64,000 nt of DNA from Streptomyces humicola (GTDB taxonomy: Bacteria; Actinomycetota; Actinomycetes; Streptomycetales; Streptomycetaceae): NCBI RefSeq assembly GCF_024436035.1, contig NZ_JANFNG010000001.1, positions 265,689 to 329,688 on the forward strand, given 5' to 3'. Under the pieces are notes generated by a model, which searched no databases, had not been told where the DNA came from, and worked only from the letters and a program-made list of their open reading frames with translations. Made by a program: the position numbers and the translations under genes. Numbering within the stretch: position 1 is the first letter of the stretch; each line of letters starts with the position of its first letter. Shown piece after piece: positions 8,815 to 14,769 of this stretch.

Positions 8815-9080
8815 CTAGAGGGCAGTCCGGGACTCCGTTCCCCCGCCCATGAAGTGACGCGGCATCAGCGTACCTCCGTCCGAGATTTCCACATGCACCC
8901 GCCCGGCGCCCAAGTCACGGCTCAATTCGAAGGTCATCGGCGCGGGCGTGCTCCACGGCGTTGGGGACGAGTTCGGAGACCGTCAGCAGCACCGACTCGG
9001 CCACCTCCTCGGGGGCTCTCCACCGGCGGCGATCCAGGTCCTTGGCGGAGTCGCGGGAGCGCTCAACGGGGAAGCCCTGC
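8815..9080 (-). pseudogene. Frameshifted remnant of an RsbW-like ATP-binding (HATPase) protein
   Basis: On the minus strand one frame reads SRDSAKDLDRRWRAPEEV followed by AESVLLTVSELVPNAVEHARA, the N-box region of the anti-sigma-factor-like ATPases abundant in Streptomyces. The next part (RVHVEISDGG, the G1-box region) lies in another frame after a break near 8930, and the gene stops at 8815. The upstream half is missing, with the fragment overlapping the ssuD end. This is a decayed gene. Confidence 0.65.
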
Positions 9081-10217
9081 GGCGAAGGGCACCTCGGGGG
9101 CGGGCTCCTCGCGGTCGCTCTCCGGGTGCGACCAGAGCCCGGCCTGGGTCAGCAGCGGCAGGACCCCCTCGCCGAACCAGTAGGCCTCCTCCAGATGCGG
9201 ATAACCGGACAGGACGAACTCGTCGATGCCGCTGCGGTGGTATTCGGTGATCCGTTCGGCGACCTCGGCGTGGCTGCCGACCAGCGCCGTCCCCGCACCG
9301 CCGCGGACCAGGCCGATCCCGGCCCACAGGTTCGGTGAGACCTCCAGGCGGTCGGCGCGCCCGCCGTGCAGGGCCAGCATGCGCCGCTGTCCTTCGGACT
9401 CGCTGCGGGCCAGGCCCTCTTGGACGGCGCGGACGTCCTGAGGGTCGAACCCGTCCAGCAGCCGTTGGGCCTCGGCCCAGGCGTGCGCGCTGGTGTCGCG
9501 CGAGATGACGTGCAGGCGGATGCCGAAGCGCACATTGCGGCCATGGCGCTGCGCCAGTTCGCGGATCCAGGCGACCTTCGCGGCGACCTGCTCGGGCGGT
9601 TCGCCCCAGGTCAGGTAGACGTCGCTGCGTCGGGCGGCGACCTCGCCGGCCGCGGGGGAGGAGCCGCCGAAGTAGATCGGCGGCACCGGCTCCGGGAGCC
9701 GGGACAGCTGTGCCTGCTCGACGCTGAGGTGCGTGCCGGAGAAATCGACGGACTTGCCCTCCCACAGCTGCCGCACGATCTGCAGGAACTCGTCGGTACG
9801 GGCGTAGCGGGCGTCCTTGTCCAGGAAGTCGCCGTACGCACGCTGCTCGTGGCTCTCGCCACCGGTCACCACGTTGAGCAGCAGCCGCCCCTGGGTGTGG
9901 CGCTGGAAGGTGGCGGCCATCTGGGCGGCCAGGGTGGGTACGACGAAGCCAGGCCGGAAGGCGACCAGGAATTTCAGCCGCTCGGTCTCGCGGCTGAGCA
10001 TGGCCGTGGTCAGCCAGGCATCCTCGCACCAGGCGCCCGTGGGGGTGAGCGCGCCGACGAAGCCGAGCTGCTCGGCGGCGCGGCCGATCTGGGCGAGATA
10101 GGCGAGGGTGGCGTGGCGCTGTCCTCCGGCGGCGCCGGTCGGCACGCCGTGGCCGCCGCCGACTACATGGCGGCTGTCGCCGTTGGTGGGCAGAAACCAA
10201 TGGAAGGTCAGACTCAC
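9063..10217 (-). CDS. ssuD: FMNH2-dependent alkanesulfonate monooxygenase (SsuD-like)
   Basis: A 384-residue bacterial-luciferase-like monooxygenase predicted to release sulfite from alkanesulfonates using reduced FMN and O2. The sequence opens with LTFHWFLPTNGDSR and carries the SsuD-type segment QMAATFQRHTQGRLLLNVV, followed by the Gly-rich GGE motif. Length matches SsuD (about 380). It is the last gene of the sulfur operon, downstream of an FMN reductase gene that could supply reduced flavin. The substrate could be another organosulfonate or sulfone, since the cluster also carries sfnG- and sfnB-like genes. Confidence 0.88.
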   Translation of the reverse strand: MSLTFHWFLPTNGDSRHVVGGGHGVPTGAAGGQRHATLAYLAQIGRAAEQLGFVGALTPTGAWCEDAWLTTAMLSRETERLKFLVAFRPGFVVPTLAAQMAATFQRHTQGRLLLNVVTGGESHEQRAYGDFLDKDARYARTDEFLQIVRQLWEGKSVDFSGTHLSVEQAQLSRLPEPVPPIYFGGSSPAAGEVAARRSDVYLTWGEPPEQVAAKVAWIRELAQRHGRNVRFGIRLHVISRDTSAHAWAEAQRLLDGFDPQDVRAVQEGLARSESEGQRRMLALHGGRADRLEVSPNLWAGIGLVRGGAGTALVGSHAEVAERITEYHRSGIDEFVLSGYPHLEEAYWFGEGVLPLLTQAGLWSHPESDREEPAPEVPFAAGLPR

Positions 10218-10247: not shown

Positions 10248-11483
10248 TCACAGCAGGCCGTGGCGCGGCGGGCGGGTGCCGTTCAGCACGTACCGCCCGA
10301 TGTGCTGCACCTTCCAGCGGACAGGGTCGTGCAGAGTGTGCGTACGCGCGTCGCGCCAGTGGCGGCTCAGGTTCAGGCCGGCGAGGGCCGAGCGGGTGCC
10401 GCTCACCTCGAACAGCGCGTCGGAGATCTGCACGGCAGCGGTCGAGGTGAAGGCCTTGGCGGCGGCCACGGCGATGGAGGCTTGCGCCGCGGAGTCGTCG
10501 GTGAGGTCTGCTCGGGCCGCGTCCACGGCGCGGGCGGCGGCGTCGAGCAGTGCGTCGGCGGCCTGTGCCTGCAGGCCGAGCTCGCCGAAGCGTTGGATGA
10601 GCAGCGGGTCGTCGGCTGCTACTGCCACTCCGCTTTCGAACCAGGGCCGGCTTTTGGTGCGTACGAAGGCCACGGCCTCGGCAAGCGCCCCGGCCGCGAT
10701 ACCGGCGTCGATGGCCGCGTGCAGCAACTGGGCGAGCGCGCCGTGCAGTTGCGGCCCGGTGAAGGTCAGGTGATGCGCCACGATGTGCTCGGCCGGGACG
10801 CGTACGCGTACCAGCCGGACGGTTCCGCTGGCGGTGGTGCGCTGGCCCATGCCGTCCCAGTCGTCGACCACGGTCACTCCCGGCGCATTGCGGGGCACGT
10901 AGGCAACGTGCAGCTGTCCGACCTCGTCCCCTTCCTCCGACACGCGGGCCAGCACGGGGATCCAGTCCGCGAAGAGTGCGCCCGTGCAGTAGTGCTTGAG
11001 CCCGTTGAGCAGATACGACCCGTCGGGTTCGCGCTCCAGCCGGGTCCGGATGTCCTGGACGTGCTGGGTGCCGGCTTCGGACTGGGCGTTGCCGAACCGG
11101 CGGCCGGCCAGCACCTGCCCGAGGAAGAAGGCCTGCTGAAACGGACTTCCCTGCTCGCGCAGCACGTTGACGTAGGCGAAGTGGTTCTGCGGGATCTGCG
11201 CCAGGCTGGGGTCGGCCGTCGCCAGCAGCCGGATCACCCGGGCGAGGACCTGGGCGCTCACGTCCGCGCCGCCGTACTCGGCGGGGACGGTCACGGCGAG
11301 CAGGCCGCTTGCGGAGAGCCGATCCAGCTCCGCATGGGGCAGGGCGCGGTCGAGGTCGCGTTGCGAGGCTCCGGGCCGGAACTCCTCGCAGAGCTCGGCA
11401 GCGATGCCAAGGGCCTCGTCGCCGTCGCGGATCACGTGCGCGGAAGCGGCGGGCGGTGTGTTCGGGAAGCCGATCGCGGTCAC
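10248..11483 (-). CDS. sfnB: SfnB-family acyl-CoA-dehydrogenase-fold flavin oxidoreductase
   Basis: A 411-residue flavoprotein of the acyl-CoA dehydrogenase fold. Members of the SfnB/DszC branch work as FMN-dependent monooxygenases in sulfur acquisition rather than in fatty-acid oxidation. Visible parts are an N-terminal helical domain with AVTVPAEYGGADV, the middle beta domain around GNAQSEAGT and HYCTGALFADW, and the C-terminal helical bundle ending in WKVQHIGRYVLNG. The catalytic Glu of true acyl-CoA dehydrogenases is not evident. Flanking ssuD-like and FMN reductase genes support the sulfur role. The exact substrate is unknown. Confidence 0.82.
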   Translation of the reverse strand: MTAIGFPNTPPAASAHVIRDGDEALGIAAELCEEFRPGASQRDLDRALPHAELDRLSASGLLAVTVPAEYGGADVSAQVLARVIRLLATADPSLAQIPQNHFAYVNVLREQGSPFQQAFFLGQVLAGRRFGNAQSEAGTQHVQDIRTRLEREPDGSYLLNGLKHYCTGALFADWIPVLARVSEEGDEVGQLHVAYVPRNAPGVTVVDDWDGMGQRTTASGTVRLVRVRVPAEHIVAHHLTFTGPQLHGALAQLLHAAIDAGIAAGALAEAVAFVRTKSRPWFESGVAVAADDPLLIQRFGELGLQAQAADALLDAAARAVDAARADLTDDSAAQASIAVAAAKAFTSTAAVQISDALFEVSGTRSALAGLNLSRHWRDARTHTLHDPVRWKVQHIGRYVLNGTRPPRHGLL

Positions 11484-11535: not shown

Positions 11536-12090
11536 TCAGTTAGCTGCCAATGGCTGCGGGTTGCGGTCGAGGGCGGCGGAGAACTGGTCGACGGTCCGGT
11601 GCAGGGCCTCGGCCGTGGCGGGTTCCACGGTCACTGAGCCGTGGGTGTTGACGGTGATATGCCGGTCCAGGACGAACCAGCCCTGGACGATATGCGCGGC
11701 TCCCATCGAGGACAGCACTGGGCGCAGCGCGTAATCGATGGCCAGCACGTGTGCGGTGGTTCCGCCGGTCGCCAGAGGGAGCACGGTCTTGCCCTCGAGC
11801 GCGTACTGGGGGAGCAGGTCCAGCAGCGACTTCAACAGGCCCGAGTAGGCAGCCTTGTAGACGGGGGTGCCGATGACGACTCCGTCGGCGCGGGCGAACA
11901 GCTCGGCGGCCCGGACCAGCGCCGGGTGGGAGCCGTCGGCGCCCAGCAGCGCCTCCGAGGGGAGGGTGCGGACGTCGAGCGCGAGCACGGTGTGCCCCTG
12001 GGCCGAGAGCCGGACGTCGAGATGGCGCAGCAGACGGGCGGTGCGCGAGGTGGCGGAGGGGCTGCCGGAGACGGACAGGACGGTGGCCAT
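11536..12090 (-). CDS. NADPH-dependent FMN reductase (SsuE/MsuE-like)
   Basis: A 184-residue flavodoxin-fold reductase that supplies FMNH2 to the monooxygenases of this operon. The phosphate-binding loop SGSPSATSRT is at residues 8-17. The motif IGTPVYKAAYSGLLKSLLD (about residues 76-94) is characteristic of the SsuE family. I start at the ATG at 12090, preceded by GAGG at good spacing; sequence encoded upstream is not family-like. It lies between the sfnB- and sfnG-like genes on the same strand. Confidence 0.9.
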   Translation of the reverse strand: MATVLSVSGSPSATSRTARLLRHLDVRLSAQGHTVLALDVRTLPSEALLGADGSHPALVRAAELFARADGVVIGTPVYKAAYSGLLKSLLDLLPQYALEGKTVLPLATGGTTAHVLAIDYALRPVLSSMGAAHIVQGWFVLDRHITVNTHGSVTVEPATAEALHRTVDQFSAALDRNPQPLAAN

Positions 12091-12192: not shown

Positions 12193-13326
12193 TCAGGCCA
12201 GGGACGCGGCGGGCTCGGGCTCGGCGTCGGGCTGCTGGGCTTCCAGTTCGCGTACCAGAGGGAGGACCCTCTGGCCGAAGTACTCCACTTCTTCCAGGTA
12301 GTGCAGGAAGCCGAGCAGGAAGAGATCCACCCCCAGGTGCTTGTAGGCGACGATCCGCTCGGCGATCTGCTCGGGCGTGCCGATGAGGCCGGTGCGGAAG
12401 CCGTCGTTGTACTGCACCAGATCCTCGAAGGAGGAGTCCTGCCACATGCCCCTGCCGTCGGCCGTGGACTGGCCCGCCTGCTTCACGGCGGCGCCGAAAC
12501 CGTGCACTGCCTCGGTGTCGGCCTTCGCAATGATCTCTCGCAGGGTGTCGCGGGCCTCGGCCTCGGTGTCGCGGGCGATGAGGAAGCCGTTGAGGCCGAA
12601 GCGGGGGGCCGTGCGGCCTGCCGCGGCGGCGGAGGAGCGCACGTCCTGGATCTGCTCGGTGGCCCCCGCGAAGTCTTTGCCGTTGCTGAAGTACCAGTCC
12701 GAGACCCGGCCGGCCATGGCCCGGGCTGCGGTCGAGTTGCCGCCTTGGAAGATCTCCGGGTGGGGGCGGTCAGGCGTGTTGAGCGGCTTGGGCTTGAGGG
12801 AGAAGTCGCGAATCCGGTAGAAGTCGCCGGCAAGTTCGGCGTGGTCCTCGGTCCAGATCGCGCGCAACGCGCGGATGAACTCCTCGGAACGGCGATAGCG
12901 CTCGTCGTGCTCCAGCCACGGCTCACCGAGAGCGGTGAACTCGCCCTTGAACCAACCGCTCACCACGTTCACGGCGAAGCGCCCGCCGGACAGGTGGTCC
13001 GCGGTGGCACCCAACTTGGCCAACACGCCGGGATGCCACAGACCCGGATGCACCGCGGCGATCACCTTCAGGCGCTCGGTGGCCAAGAGCAGCGCCAAGC
13101 TGAAGCTGGTCGACTCGTGCTGGTACTCGGCTCCGTAGCTGGCCATGTAGCGGACCTGGCTGAGTGCGTAGTCAAAGCCGCTGTTCTCGGCGAGCACGGC
13201 CAGCCGCCGGTTGTAGTCGTAGGTCCAGTCGGTGCGCTGCTCGATTTTGCTGGTGACCAGGCCCCCACTGACGTTGGGGACCCAGTAGGCGAAGCGGACC
13301 GGATCGGGAGCGTGGGCTTGGGACAT
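12193..13326 (-). CDS. sfnG: SfnG-family dimethylsulfone-type FMNH2-dependent monooxygenase
   Basis: A luciferase-like monooxygenase of 377 residues. The start RFAYWVPNVSGGLVTSKIEQ and the segment HPGLWHPGVLAKLGATAD are typical of SfnG, which converts dimethylsulfone to methanesulfinate with FMNH2 and O2. The ATG at 13326 has GGAG at suitable spacing. It is the first enzyme gene of the operon, 302 bases after a Cys-containing leader peptide. The neighbouring SsuE-like reductase is the probable flavin source. A related sulfone or sulfonate substrate cannot be excluded. Confidence 0.85.
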   Translation of the reverse strand: MSQAHAPDPVRFAYWVPNVSGGLVTSKIEQRTDWTYDYNRRLAVLAENSGFDYALSQVRYMASYGAEYQHESTSFSLALLLATERLKVIAAVHPGLWHPGVLAKLGATADHLSGGRFAVNVVSGWFKGEFTALGEPWLEHDERYRRSEEFIRALRAIWTEDHAELAGDFYRIRDFSLKPKPLNTPDRPHPEIFQGGNSTAARAMAGRVSDWYFSNGKDFAGATEQIQDVRSSAAAAGRTAPRFGLNGFLIARDTEAEARDTLREIIAKADTEAVHGFGAAVKQAGQSTADGRGMWQDSSFEDLVQYNDGFRTGLIGTPEQIAERIVAYKHLGVDLFLLGFLHYLEEVEYFGQRVLPLVRELEAQQPDAEPEPAASLA

Positions 13327-13628
13327 GGCGAACTCCAGGGAACGGAAGGGGAAACGGGGACGAGAGGCAAGGGAGCGCTCTTGCTGCATCGGCACGCGGG
13401 GGGCGGTCCACGCGCGGTCAGACGGAGTGCAGGGCCACGAAGTGCCGGGAGACGGAGTGCCGGGAGACGGAGTGCGGCGAGATGGGGAGCATGGCCGGAC
13501 CTGCCGGAACCCTGCGATCACGCGCGTAGCGGGCAGGGCTTGTCCAGTCCGAGGAGGACCAGTCCAGGACGTCGCGAGTGCACCGAAGGCTGTCGGCACG
13601 CAGGCCCGGCACTGGCCAGGCGGGCGTC
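13327..13628 (-). promoter_or_regulatory. Untranslated leader between Cys leader peptide and sfnG
   Basis: These 302 bases hold no convincing gene. They contain the 15-bp tandem repeats at 13441-13485, GTCC/GGAC inverted elements near 13545-13570, and a GC-rich potential stem just after the leader-peptide stop (GCCCG/CGGGC near 13600-13625). Their place between a Cys-coding mini-ORF and the structural genes fits an attenuator, but I could not define alternative structures with certainty. Confidence 0.45.
13441..13485. repeat. Three-copy 15-bp tandem repeat
   Basis: The unit AGTGCCGGGAGACGG occurs twice in perfect copies (13441-13455 and 13456-13470) and once with two changes (13471-13485). 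It lies in the untranslated leader of the sulfur operon. Confidence 0.85.
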
Positions 13629-13718
13629 TCAGGCCACGCGGCGACAGCGACAGACGGCGCTGGACACACGCACCAGGTCGACGTGGCGTCGACGCGTGAG
13701 TCCCAGTCGCTTCTTCAT
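13629..13718 (-). CDS. Cys-containing leader peptide of the sulfur operon (29 residues)
   Basis: A mini-ORF begins at the ATG at 13718 and ends with TGA at 13629. Its product opens MKKRLGLTRRRHVDLVRV and ends SSAVCRCRRVA. The core RRRHVDL-x-R-x-x-S-x-x-C matches a recurrent family of short actinobacterial peptides annotated as putative leader peptides in front of sulfur-assimilation genes. The closely spaced Cys codons (C-R-C) near the end are the natural sensor: ribosomes should stall when Cys-tRNA is scarce and so alter folding of the downstream leader. It precedes the sfnG-like gene by 302 bases on the same strand. Cys-responsive attenuation is established for mycobacterial short ORFs; its use here is inference. 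Confidence 0.78.
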   Translation of the reverse strand: MKKRLGLTRRRHVDLVRVSSAVCRCRRVA

Positions 13719-13812
13719 GTCCGTGAGGGTAGCCAAGGGGAGGTGGTCGGGTCGAGTAGGCATCTACGAGCGCCTGATAGGGTTTCCCTTACATCGAACG
13801 GAGTCTCTCGCG

Positions 13813-14769
13813 ATGCGGATCGAACAGCTGGAGTACATCGAGGCGATCACCCGCCTCGGCTCGCTGCGCCGCGCTGCCGGGGAACTCCACCTCTCCCCAC
13901 CGGCGTTGAGTGAGACCGTCCGCAACCTGGAGCGAGAACTGGGCGTCGAACTCCTGGACCGCAGGCGCTCCGTAGCCAAGATCAGCGATGAGGGCCGCGA
14001 GCTGCTGCCTCATATCACCGGCGTCTTGGAGGCGGTCGACCGGCTGCGCCGCGCAGCCCACGAACATCACCACACCACCCGCATGCTGCGCCTCGGCACG
14101 GTCAACGCGGCCACAGTGCCGTTGCTCGTCCCTGCTATCCGGGAGTTCCGGGCCGCGCATCCCATGACGCAGGTCGAAGTTGTCGCCTCGCAGCAGGCGG
14201 AGATCCATCAGTCCCTGCTGGATGGCAGTTTCGACCTGGGACTGGTCAACTACCTGCGCGGTGACGACTTTCCGCCCGAGCTGCAGACCACCGAACTGCT
14301 ACGGGGGCGTCCCATCGCCTGCGTCCGGCCCGACAGCCCGCTGGCCGCGCTGGAGGTGCTGGGCGTGGACGATCTGCTCCGCGAGCCGCTGGTGGTGATG
14401 CGGTCGGGATACGTCATGCACCGATTCGTCCACCGCCTGTTGCAGGGCCGCTCGCCGTCCTTCTCCTATTCGACCGACGGTGCGGAGATGGGCAAGCTCA
14501 TGGTCGCCGAGGGACTCGGCGTGACGGTGCTGCCAGACTTCAGCGTGCGGGACGATCCCCTGGAGCGCAGCGGCGCCATCACCTACCGGCCCATGGCGGA
14601 CGACTCGACCGAAGTGCTGATGGTCATCCAGTACCGGCGCTTCGGGTCGGCCCCTCGAGCCGCCCGCGACCTTCACGACATCTTCGTCCACCGGGCACAG
14701 GAGCGCCGAAAGGCATTGGAGGACCCTCCAGCGCGTGTGGGCCGTGGTCAGCCGGTAATGCCATCGTAG
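13813..14769 (+). CDS. LysR-family transcriptional regulator of the sulfur operon
   Basis: A 318-residue LysR-type regulator. The N-terminal winged helix-turn-helix is clear (residues 1-60: LEYIEAITRLGSLRRAAGEL then LSPPALSETVRNLERELGV). The effector-binding domain follows from about residue 90, with the typical SFDLGLVNY and EGLGVTVLPDF segments. The ATG at 13813 starts directly at the conserved MRIEQL. It is divergent from the sulfur operon, with the leader peptide start 95 bases away, so it probably controls that operon from the shared intergenic region. The effector could be a sulfur intermediate (inference by analogy with CysB/Cbl/SsuR-type proteins). Confidence 0.88.
   Translation: MRIEQLEYIEAITRLGSLRRAAGELHLSPPALSETVRNLERELGVELLDRRRSVAKISDEGRELLPHITGVLEAVDRLRRAAHEHHHTTRMLRLGTVNAATVPLLVPAIREFRAAHPMTQVEVVASQQAEIHQSLLDGSFDLGLVNYLRGDDFPPELQTTELLRGRPIACVRPDSPLAALEVLGVDDLLREPLVVMRSGYVMHRFVHRLLQGRSPSFSYSTDGAEMGKLMVAEGLGVTVLPDFSVRDDPLERSGAITYRPMADDSTEVLMVIQYRRFGSAPRAARDLHDIFVHRAQERRKALEDPPARVGRGQPVMPS

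Follow-up and report, generated by a model that had tools for sequence, protein, structure and literature searches.

A conserved mini-ORF as a probable cysteine leader peptide in front of a sulfone/sulfonate operon of Streptomyces humicola

The mini-ORF, its operon and a candidate promoter

Is the short open reading frame in front of an organosulfur operon of Streptomyces humicola a leader peptide that adjusts the use of sulfones and sulfonates to the supply of cysteine? The question arises from a window of 64,000 nucleotides (the whole stretch of DNA that was analysed), for which an earlier note had claimed a 29-codon mini-ORF ending in the residues C-R-C. Translation of the minus strand bears this out. 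The mini-ORF occupies 13718..13629 (ATG...TGA, 29 codons, MKKRLGLTRRRHVDLVRVSSAVCRCRRVA followed by the stop); the plus strand at 13629-13718 was considered as an ORF and rejected. The two Cys codons, 23 (13650..13652) and 25 (13644..13646), are both TGT and have an Arg codon between them, a contiguous run of Cys codons being absent. Codon 23 lies 11 codons past the His of the RRRHVDL motif, and we number positions from this His, codon 23 being +11. The peptide belongs to the NCBIfam family NF042934 "putative leader peptide" (cis_reg_atten), scoring 37 bits (E 1.8e-9) against a curated cut-off of 27, the name of the family stating no tested function. With NF042933 (Ms5788A) and NF042936 (Ms4527A) it scores 20.1 and 18.9 bits, below the cut-off of 45, and a scan of the whole window against Rfam gave no match.

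As had been stated before, the mini-ORF has the orientation of the sulfur genes and is separated from them by 302 bases: all lie on the minus strand, and the spacer from the leader stop to sfnG comprises 13327..13628. The first gene, sfnG (dimethylsulfone monooxygenase, 12193..13326, TIGR04021 631 bits, cut-off 383), begins with the ATG at 13326 and has a Shine-Dalgarno (SD) core GGAG at 13333..13336. It is followed by an ssuE-type FMN reductase gene (11536..12090, TIGR03567 221 bits, cut-off 164) and by sfnB, encoding a sulfur acquisition oxidoreductase (10248..11483, TIGR04022 555 bits, cut-off 431). These three had been named correctly, all of them being above the NCBIfam cut-offs. The fourth gene (9063..10217), previously given as ssuD, we call SsuD-like only, because it remains below both alkanesulfonate monooxygenase cut-offs (PRK00719 473 bits, cut-off 510; TIGR03565 464 bits, cut-off 518). 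A gene for a LysR-family regulator (PF00126 and PF03466) diverges on the plus strand at 13813..14769; joint two-layer control by LysR and the leader is only a proposal.

Seven nucleotides 5' of the mini-ORF ATG there is a candidate -10 element TACCCT (13726..13731, minus strand), and a candidate -35 element TCGACC (13750..13755) lies 18 nucleotides 5' of it. A sigma-70 consensus scan of the leader gave no match, these elements being too weak for the scan. A comparable geometry is found in most relatives, for example TTGACG-N18-CACGAT-N7-ATG, and at one locus (L084) TCGACC-N18-TAACCT-N7-ATG. From the arrangement TCGACC-N18-TACCCT-N7-ATG, which rests on this shared geometry, it is likely that the transcript starts at or beside the mini-ORF ATG (leaderless-type initiation).

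Conservation before sfnG and other leaders of the family

The earlier note had suggested looking for the mini-ORF and its Cys codons in relatives, and this comparison was passed decisively: the mini-ORF is conserved before sfnG in 62/62 Streptomyces-type loci examined, with an invariant Cys at +11. Among 80 sfnG loci in named genomes, all 55 loci of Streptomyces and Actinacidiphila have it, as do all seven same-family genomes with sfnG (S. humicola included). In nearly all Streptomyces-type sfnG loci the LysR gene is conserved and divergent, and the downstream genes are alike where the contig reaches. Between Leu -5 and Ser +8 the 62 peptides are near-identical; the spacer, by contrast, has diverged in length and sequence. 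The start is kept in two ways, by a leaderless-type promoter in most clades and by a strong Shine-Dalgarno sequence, e.g. GAGGAGGTGA, in several. As to the Cys codons as a conserved sensor, the first one stands, and the C-R-C spacing does not: the second Cys varies between relatives, Cys at +13 occurring in 17/62 sfnG leaders, and 13/62 have a single Cys. Diverged forms of the leader occur in a Nocardia genome (L098) and in a genome of the Pseudonocardiaceae (L102), and in two Actinomadura loci (L091:6139, L096:6141) a leader with TGT at +11 follows sfnG and precedes the gene after it, which is another position within the operon. By the pattern used, no leader was found at sfnG in Gordonia, Williamsia, Nocardioides and others. 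Two loci (L062:3881 and L068:3591) have, on the minus strand of their LysR region, a second leader-like peptide, VTRRHVDYVRVTTTGC, again with TGT at +11.

Because of its E value with NF042934 and its conservation in the 62 Streptomyces-type sfnG loci, the mini-ORF is genuine and far above chance. Spurious ORFs do abound in GC-rich DNA, and hence a chance ORF without function has to be considered; yet the mini-ORF is kept in every Streptomyces-type locus as well as across paralogues, and the DNA pattern described below finds nothing when read backwards. On conservation we reject this explanation, whose probability we regard as practically nil.

Paralogues are found in the genome of S. humicola itself, where the NF042934 profile matches 11 places at E <= 1. 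Eight of the 11, the mini-ORF included, have Cys at +11, in all cases TGT. Three matches (L009, L012, L013) have no Cys at this position and were not counted as leaders. Downstream of the Cys leaders, where scanned, we found genes for cysteine synthase, rhodanese and an ssu-type ABC ATPase, a sulfite/nitrite reductase-type gene followed by APS/PAPS reductase, and genes for DmoA-like monooxygenases and a cysteine dioxygenase (CDO)-domain protein, the last preceded by the leader L010 (C55:120125). Members of NF042934 above the cut-off occur in 93/100 genomes searched. The genes after the leaders of relatives encode cysteine synthase, luciferase-like monooxygenases, FMN reductase, NMT1-type binding proteins, arylsulfotransferase, rhodanese and cysteine dioxygenase; some are without clear link to sulfur. 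The mini-ORF is a member of a family of probable Cys-sensing leader peptides that is widespread among actinobacteria, and by family membership and conservation the core idea of a Cys leader peptide for the organosulfur operon holds. Several leaders are of the RLWRRVHMDLVRYAGCVC type (L201, L204, L208, L209, L212, L215, L244). After L201 comes a gene for cysteine dioxygenase; as this enzyme degrades cysteine, its place behind a switch for low cysteine is unexpected. L011 (C8:30296) of S. humicola resembles this type. In one leader of the HVDLCRLASA type (L221) the +11 codon is TAG, a stop in place of the conserved Cys.

The leader family as such is already recognised; for its present setting we found no description. 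According to passages in PMC13236596 and PMC9031893 that cite Canestrari et al. 2020, the function of mycobacterial Cys leaders has been shown. The S. humicola leader resembles the mycobacterial poly-Cys leaderless ORFs in being a mini-ORF, probably of the leaderless type, before sulfur genes, with (K/R)RR(A/H)VDLxR and a Cys codon UGU at +11. It differs in having no poly-Cys run and in its genetic setting, with a LysR gene next to it and a sulfone/sulfonate operon after it. For Mycobacterium, Propionibacterium and Bifidobacterium, Cys leader peptides lacking clear terminators were predicted by Seliverstov et al. 2005 (PMC1262725); in the parts of that paper considered here these are likewise candidate actinobacterial leaders with no obvious terminators, whereas their runs of Cys codons lie near the stop, they precede cys operons and cbs, and sfnG does not appear in the examples given. 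The uORFC-8-2 leader of cysS in Rhodobacterales (PMC8632094) is alike in being a uORF whose conserved Cys codons are taken to be a sensor of Cys-tRNA, and differs by the dominance of UGC and the presence of an intrinsic terminator. Among the eight leader peptides listed in a reannotation of S. lividans, none is cysteine-dependent. We found no paper with both HVDL and leader peptide, which is weak evidence given the limited collection searched; equally weak is the lack of any mention of an invariant UGU, or of sfnG together with NF042934, in the portions of the literature that were covered.

The invariant UGU codon and the peptide before it

At +11 the codon is TGT in 62/62 sfnG leaders and in 116/116 leaders of a diverse set, one further leader of these 117 having a stop; as the leader sets overlap partly and the species are related, the counts are not independent events, although many families and unrelated downstream genes are represented. 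At other Cys positions of the diverse leaders TGC prevails over TGT (101:15), as it does among the Cys codons of the genes downstream (103:3). The mycobacterial-type poly-Cys leaders of NF042933 follow the same rule, with TGT at +11 in 28/28 and TGC prevailing at +10 (14:2) and at +4 (25:3). A degenerate DNA pattern ending in either TGT or TGC, which was chosen to avoid profile bias and gives zero in backward-read controls, had 101 matches in 55/148 genomes of the class when ending in TGT and none when ending in TGC. That the key Cys is always encoded by UGU, although UGC dominates elsewhere, gives a clue to the possible working of the sensor.

The residues around the motif are kept in a different manner. 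Arg -2 and Arg +5 are present in 117/117 distinct diverse leaders with five codons used at each position, and Asp +2 is invariant as an amino acid in all 117 with several codons. As these three residues do not change and their codons do, the pattern indicates that selection acts on the predicted leader peptide. For the invariance of UGU, decoding of the codon would be the simplest reason, because no shared RNA structure inside the mini-ORF was predicted across the leaders and the bases flanking the +11 codon vary. Bacterial tRNA-Cys carries the anticodon GCA, by which UGU would be read through G:U wobble.

The wider result is that an invariant nascent-chain motif is followed by an invariant UGU, and this is the part most deserving follow-up. 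The known cysteine-responsive leaders of mycobacteria have poly-Cys tracts; here one Cys seems enough. It might be, and we put this forward tentatively as falling somewhat short of an even chance, that actinobacterial Cys leaders in general are hybrid sensors, in which a conserved nascent chain prepares the ribosome in such a way that one wobble-read UGU at a fixed distance suffices for gauging Cys-tRNA. The mycobacterial poly-Cys tracts would then be an elaboration, and the leaders would define a class-wide, ribosome-directed sulfur regulon including sulfone and sulfonate use. With an invariant motif and an invariant rare codon, it becomes directly testable whether a tRNA sensor owes its sensitivity jointly to codon choice and nascent chain.

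Proposed mechanism and possible downstream switch

For the locus in S. humicola we consider it likely, with a good margin for error, that the mini-ORF encodes a leader peptide acting in cis, which reports charged tRNA-Cys and controls sfnG-ssuE-sfnB-ssuD-like by stalling at UGU. The mRNA would probably begin with the mini-ORF ATG or close beside it, so that a ribosome would start on the mini-ORF without delay. The nascent chain RRRHVDLxRVSSxx may prime this ribosome to pause when the invariant UGU, decoded by wobble with the GCA anticodon, comes next. If Cys-tRNA is short, the ribosome would stall at UGU and thereby alter the folding or the termination of the downstream leader; the four genes would then be made and sulfur recovered from sulfones and sulfonates. 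If cysteine is plentiful, the ribosome would finish the mini-ORF and the operon would stay low. Comparison among relatives supports a mini-ORF under apparent selection, its invariant UGU-Cys, its recurrence in front of sulfur genes and, for a single Streptomyces clade, a predicted pairing with the SD. We infer the stalling, the kinetic role of UGU and a downstream switch in S. humicola; the help of the nascent chain would follow from its conservation alone. Such a mechanism would mean that in Streptomyces-type bacteria the use of dimethylsulfone and sulfonates, too, comes under sulfur control directed by the ribosome.

Against induction at low cysteine speaks the occurrence of two leader types before cysteine dioxygenase genes, where such induction makes little sense. 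Members in this position would be expected to respond to high cysteine and might suggest that, similar to TnaC, the peptide senses free cysteine bound within the tunnel of the ribosome, and not charged tRNA. The invariance of the tunnel-proximal residues agrees with this as well, but an invariant Cys codon that is always UGU fits tRNA sensing better, and we regard tunnel sensing as very unlikely.

How stalling at UGU would be passed on to sfnG is best seen in the largest Streptomyces clade. There the sequence CUCCUGUUGC, within the codons for Ala-Ser-Cys-Cys (ASCC), is exactly complementary to the sfnG SD region GCAACAGGAG, and the pairing of about -22 kcal/mol is better than that of nearly all control windows. 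For 22/61 leaders the pairing with the sfnG SD is matched by fewer than 1% of control windows, and a compensatory change was seen at one locus (L044: leader UGUCG, SD CGACA). The pairing in the ASCC clade agrees with the model of translational control described from mycobacteria. When leaders and SDs were swapped among loci, own pairs were only modestly better on average (-15.8 vs -14.4 kcal/mol), and pairing with the SD is therefore a feature of a clade and not general. In S. humicola the best pairing joins UCCAG with CUGGA and UGGUG with CGCCA, and that of the Cys region with the sfnG SD is not above random, 84% of windows being as good. Equilibrium folding with the stalled ribosome masked gave no clean release of the SD in most loci, S. 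humicola included.

These results bear on the possibility that the mini-ORF is an ordinary translational attenuator of the mycobacterial poly-Cys type, in which Cys codons slow the ribosome and a sequestered SD is released, RRRHVDL being incidental or an effect at the RNA level. It has a published mycobacterial precedent (in the passages citing it in PMC13236596 and PMC9031893), and in the ASCC clade the Cys codons pair directly with the SD. However, many leaders have a single Cys (13/62 sfnG leaders), and yet the residues upstream are invariant in spite of free synonymous change, no RNA structure is common to the leaders, and the pairing at the S. humicola locus lends no support. We thus lean against this explanation, which we still take as a serious possibility.

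An attenuator within the 302-nt leader, as the earlier note had proposed, did not find support in S. humicola: no terminator-like site was detected on either strand of 13280..13860, SD pairing is at random level and masking frees no SD. The missing intrinsic terminator would suit attenuation of transcription by Rho, where a stalled ribosome shields, or one that finishes exposes, a C-rich Rho site in the spacer. This would be a rival for the switch and not for the sensor. It was proposed earlier for mycobacterial cys leaders (in the portion of PMC1262725 that deals with them), and the spacers are indeed C-rich (43% C, 24% G), but the excess over the coding region (39% C, 28% G) is small, and the SD-pairing clade points to translation control in that clade. 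Rho-dependent attenuation thus appears rather unlikely to us, if by no means far-fetched. Within the spacer of S. humicola, at 13420..13485, we noted short tandem repeats (CCGGCACTCCGTCTC, minus strand) that by eye are absent from relatives; their copies contain ACTCC, which is complementary to the GGAGU of sfnG.
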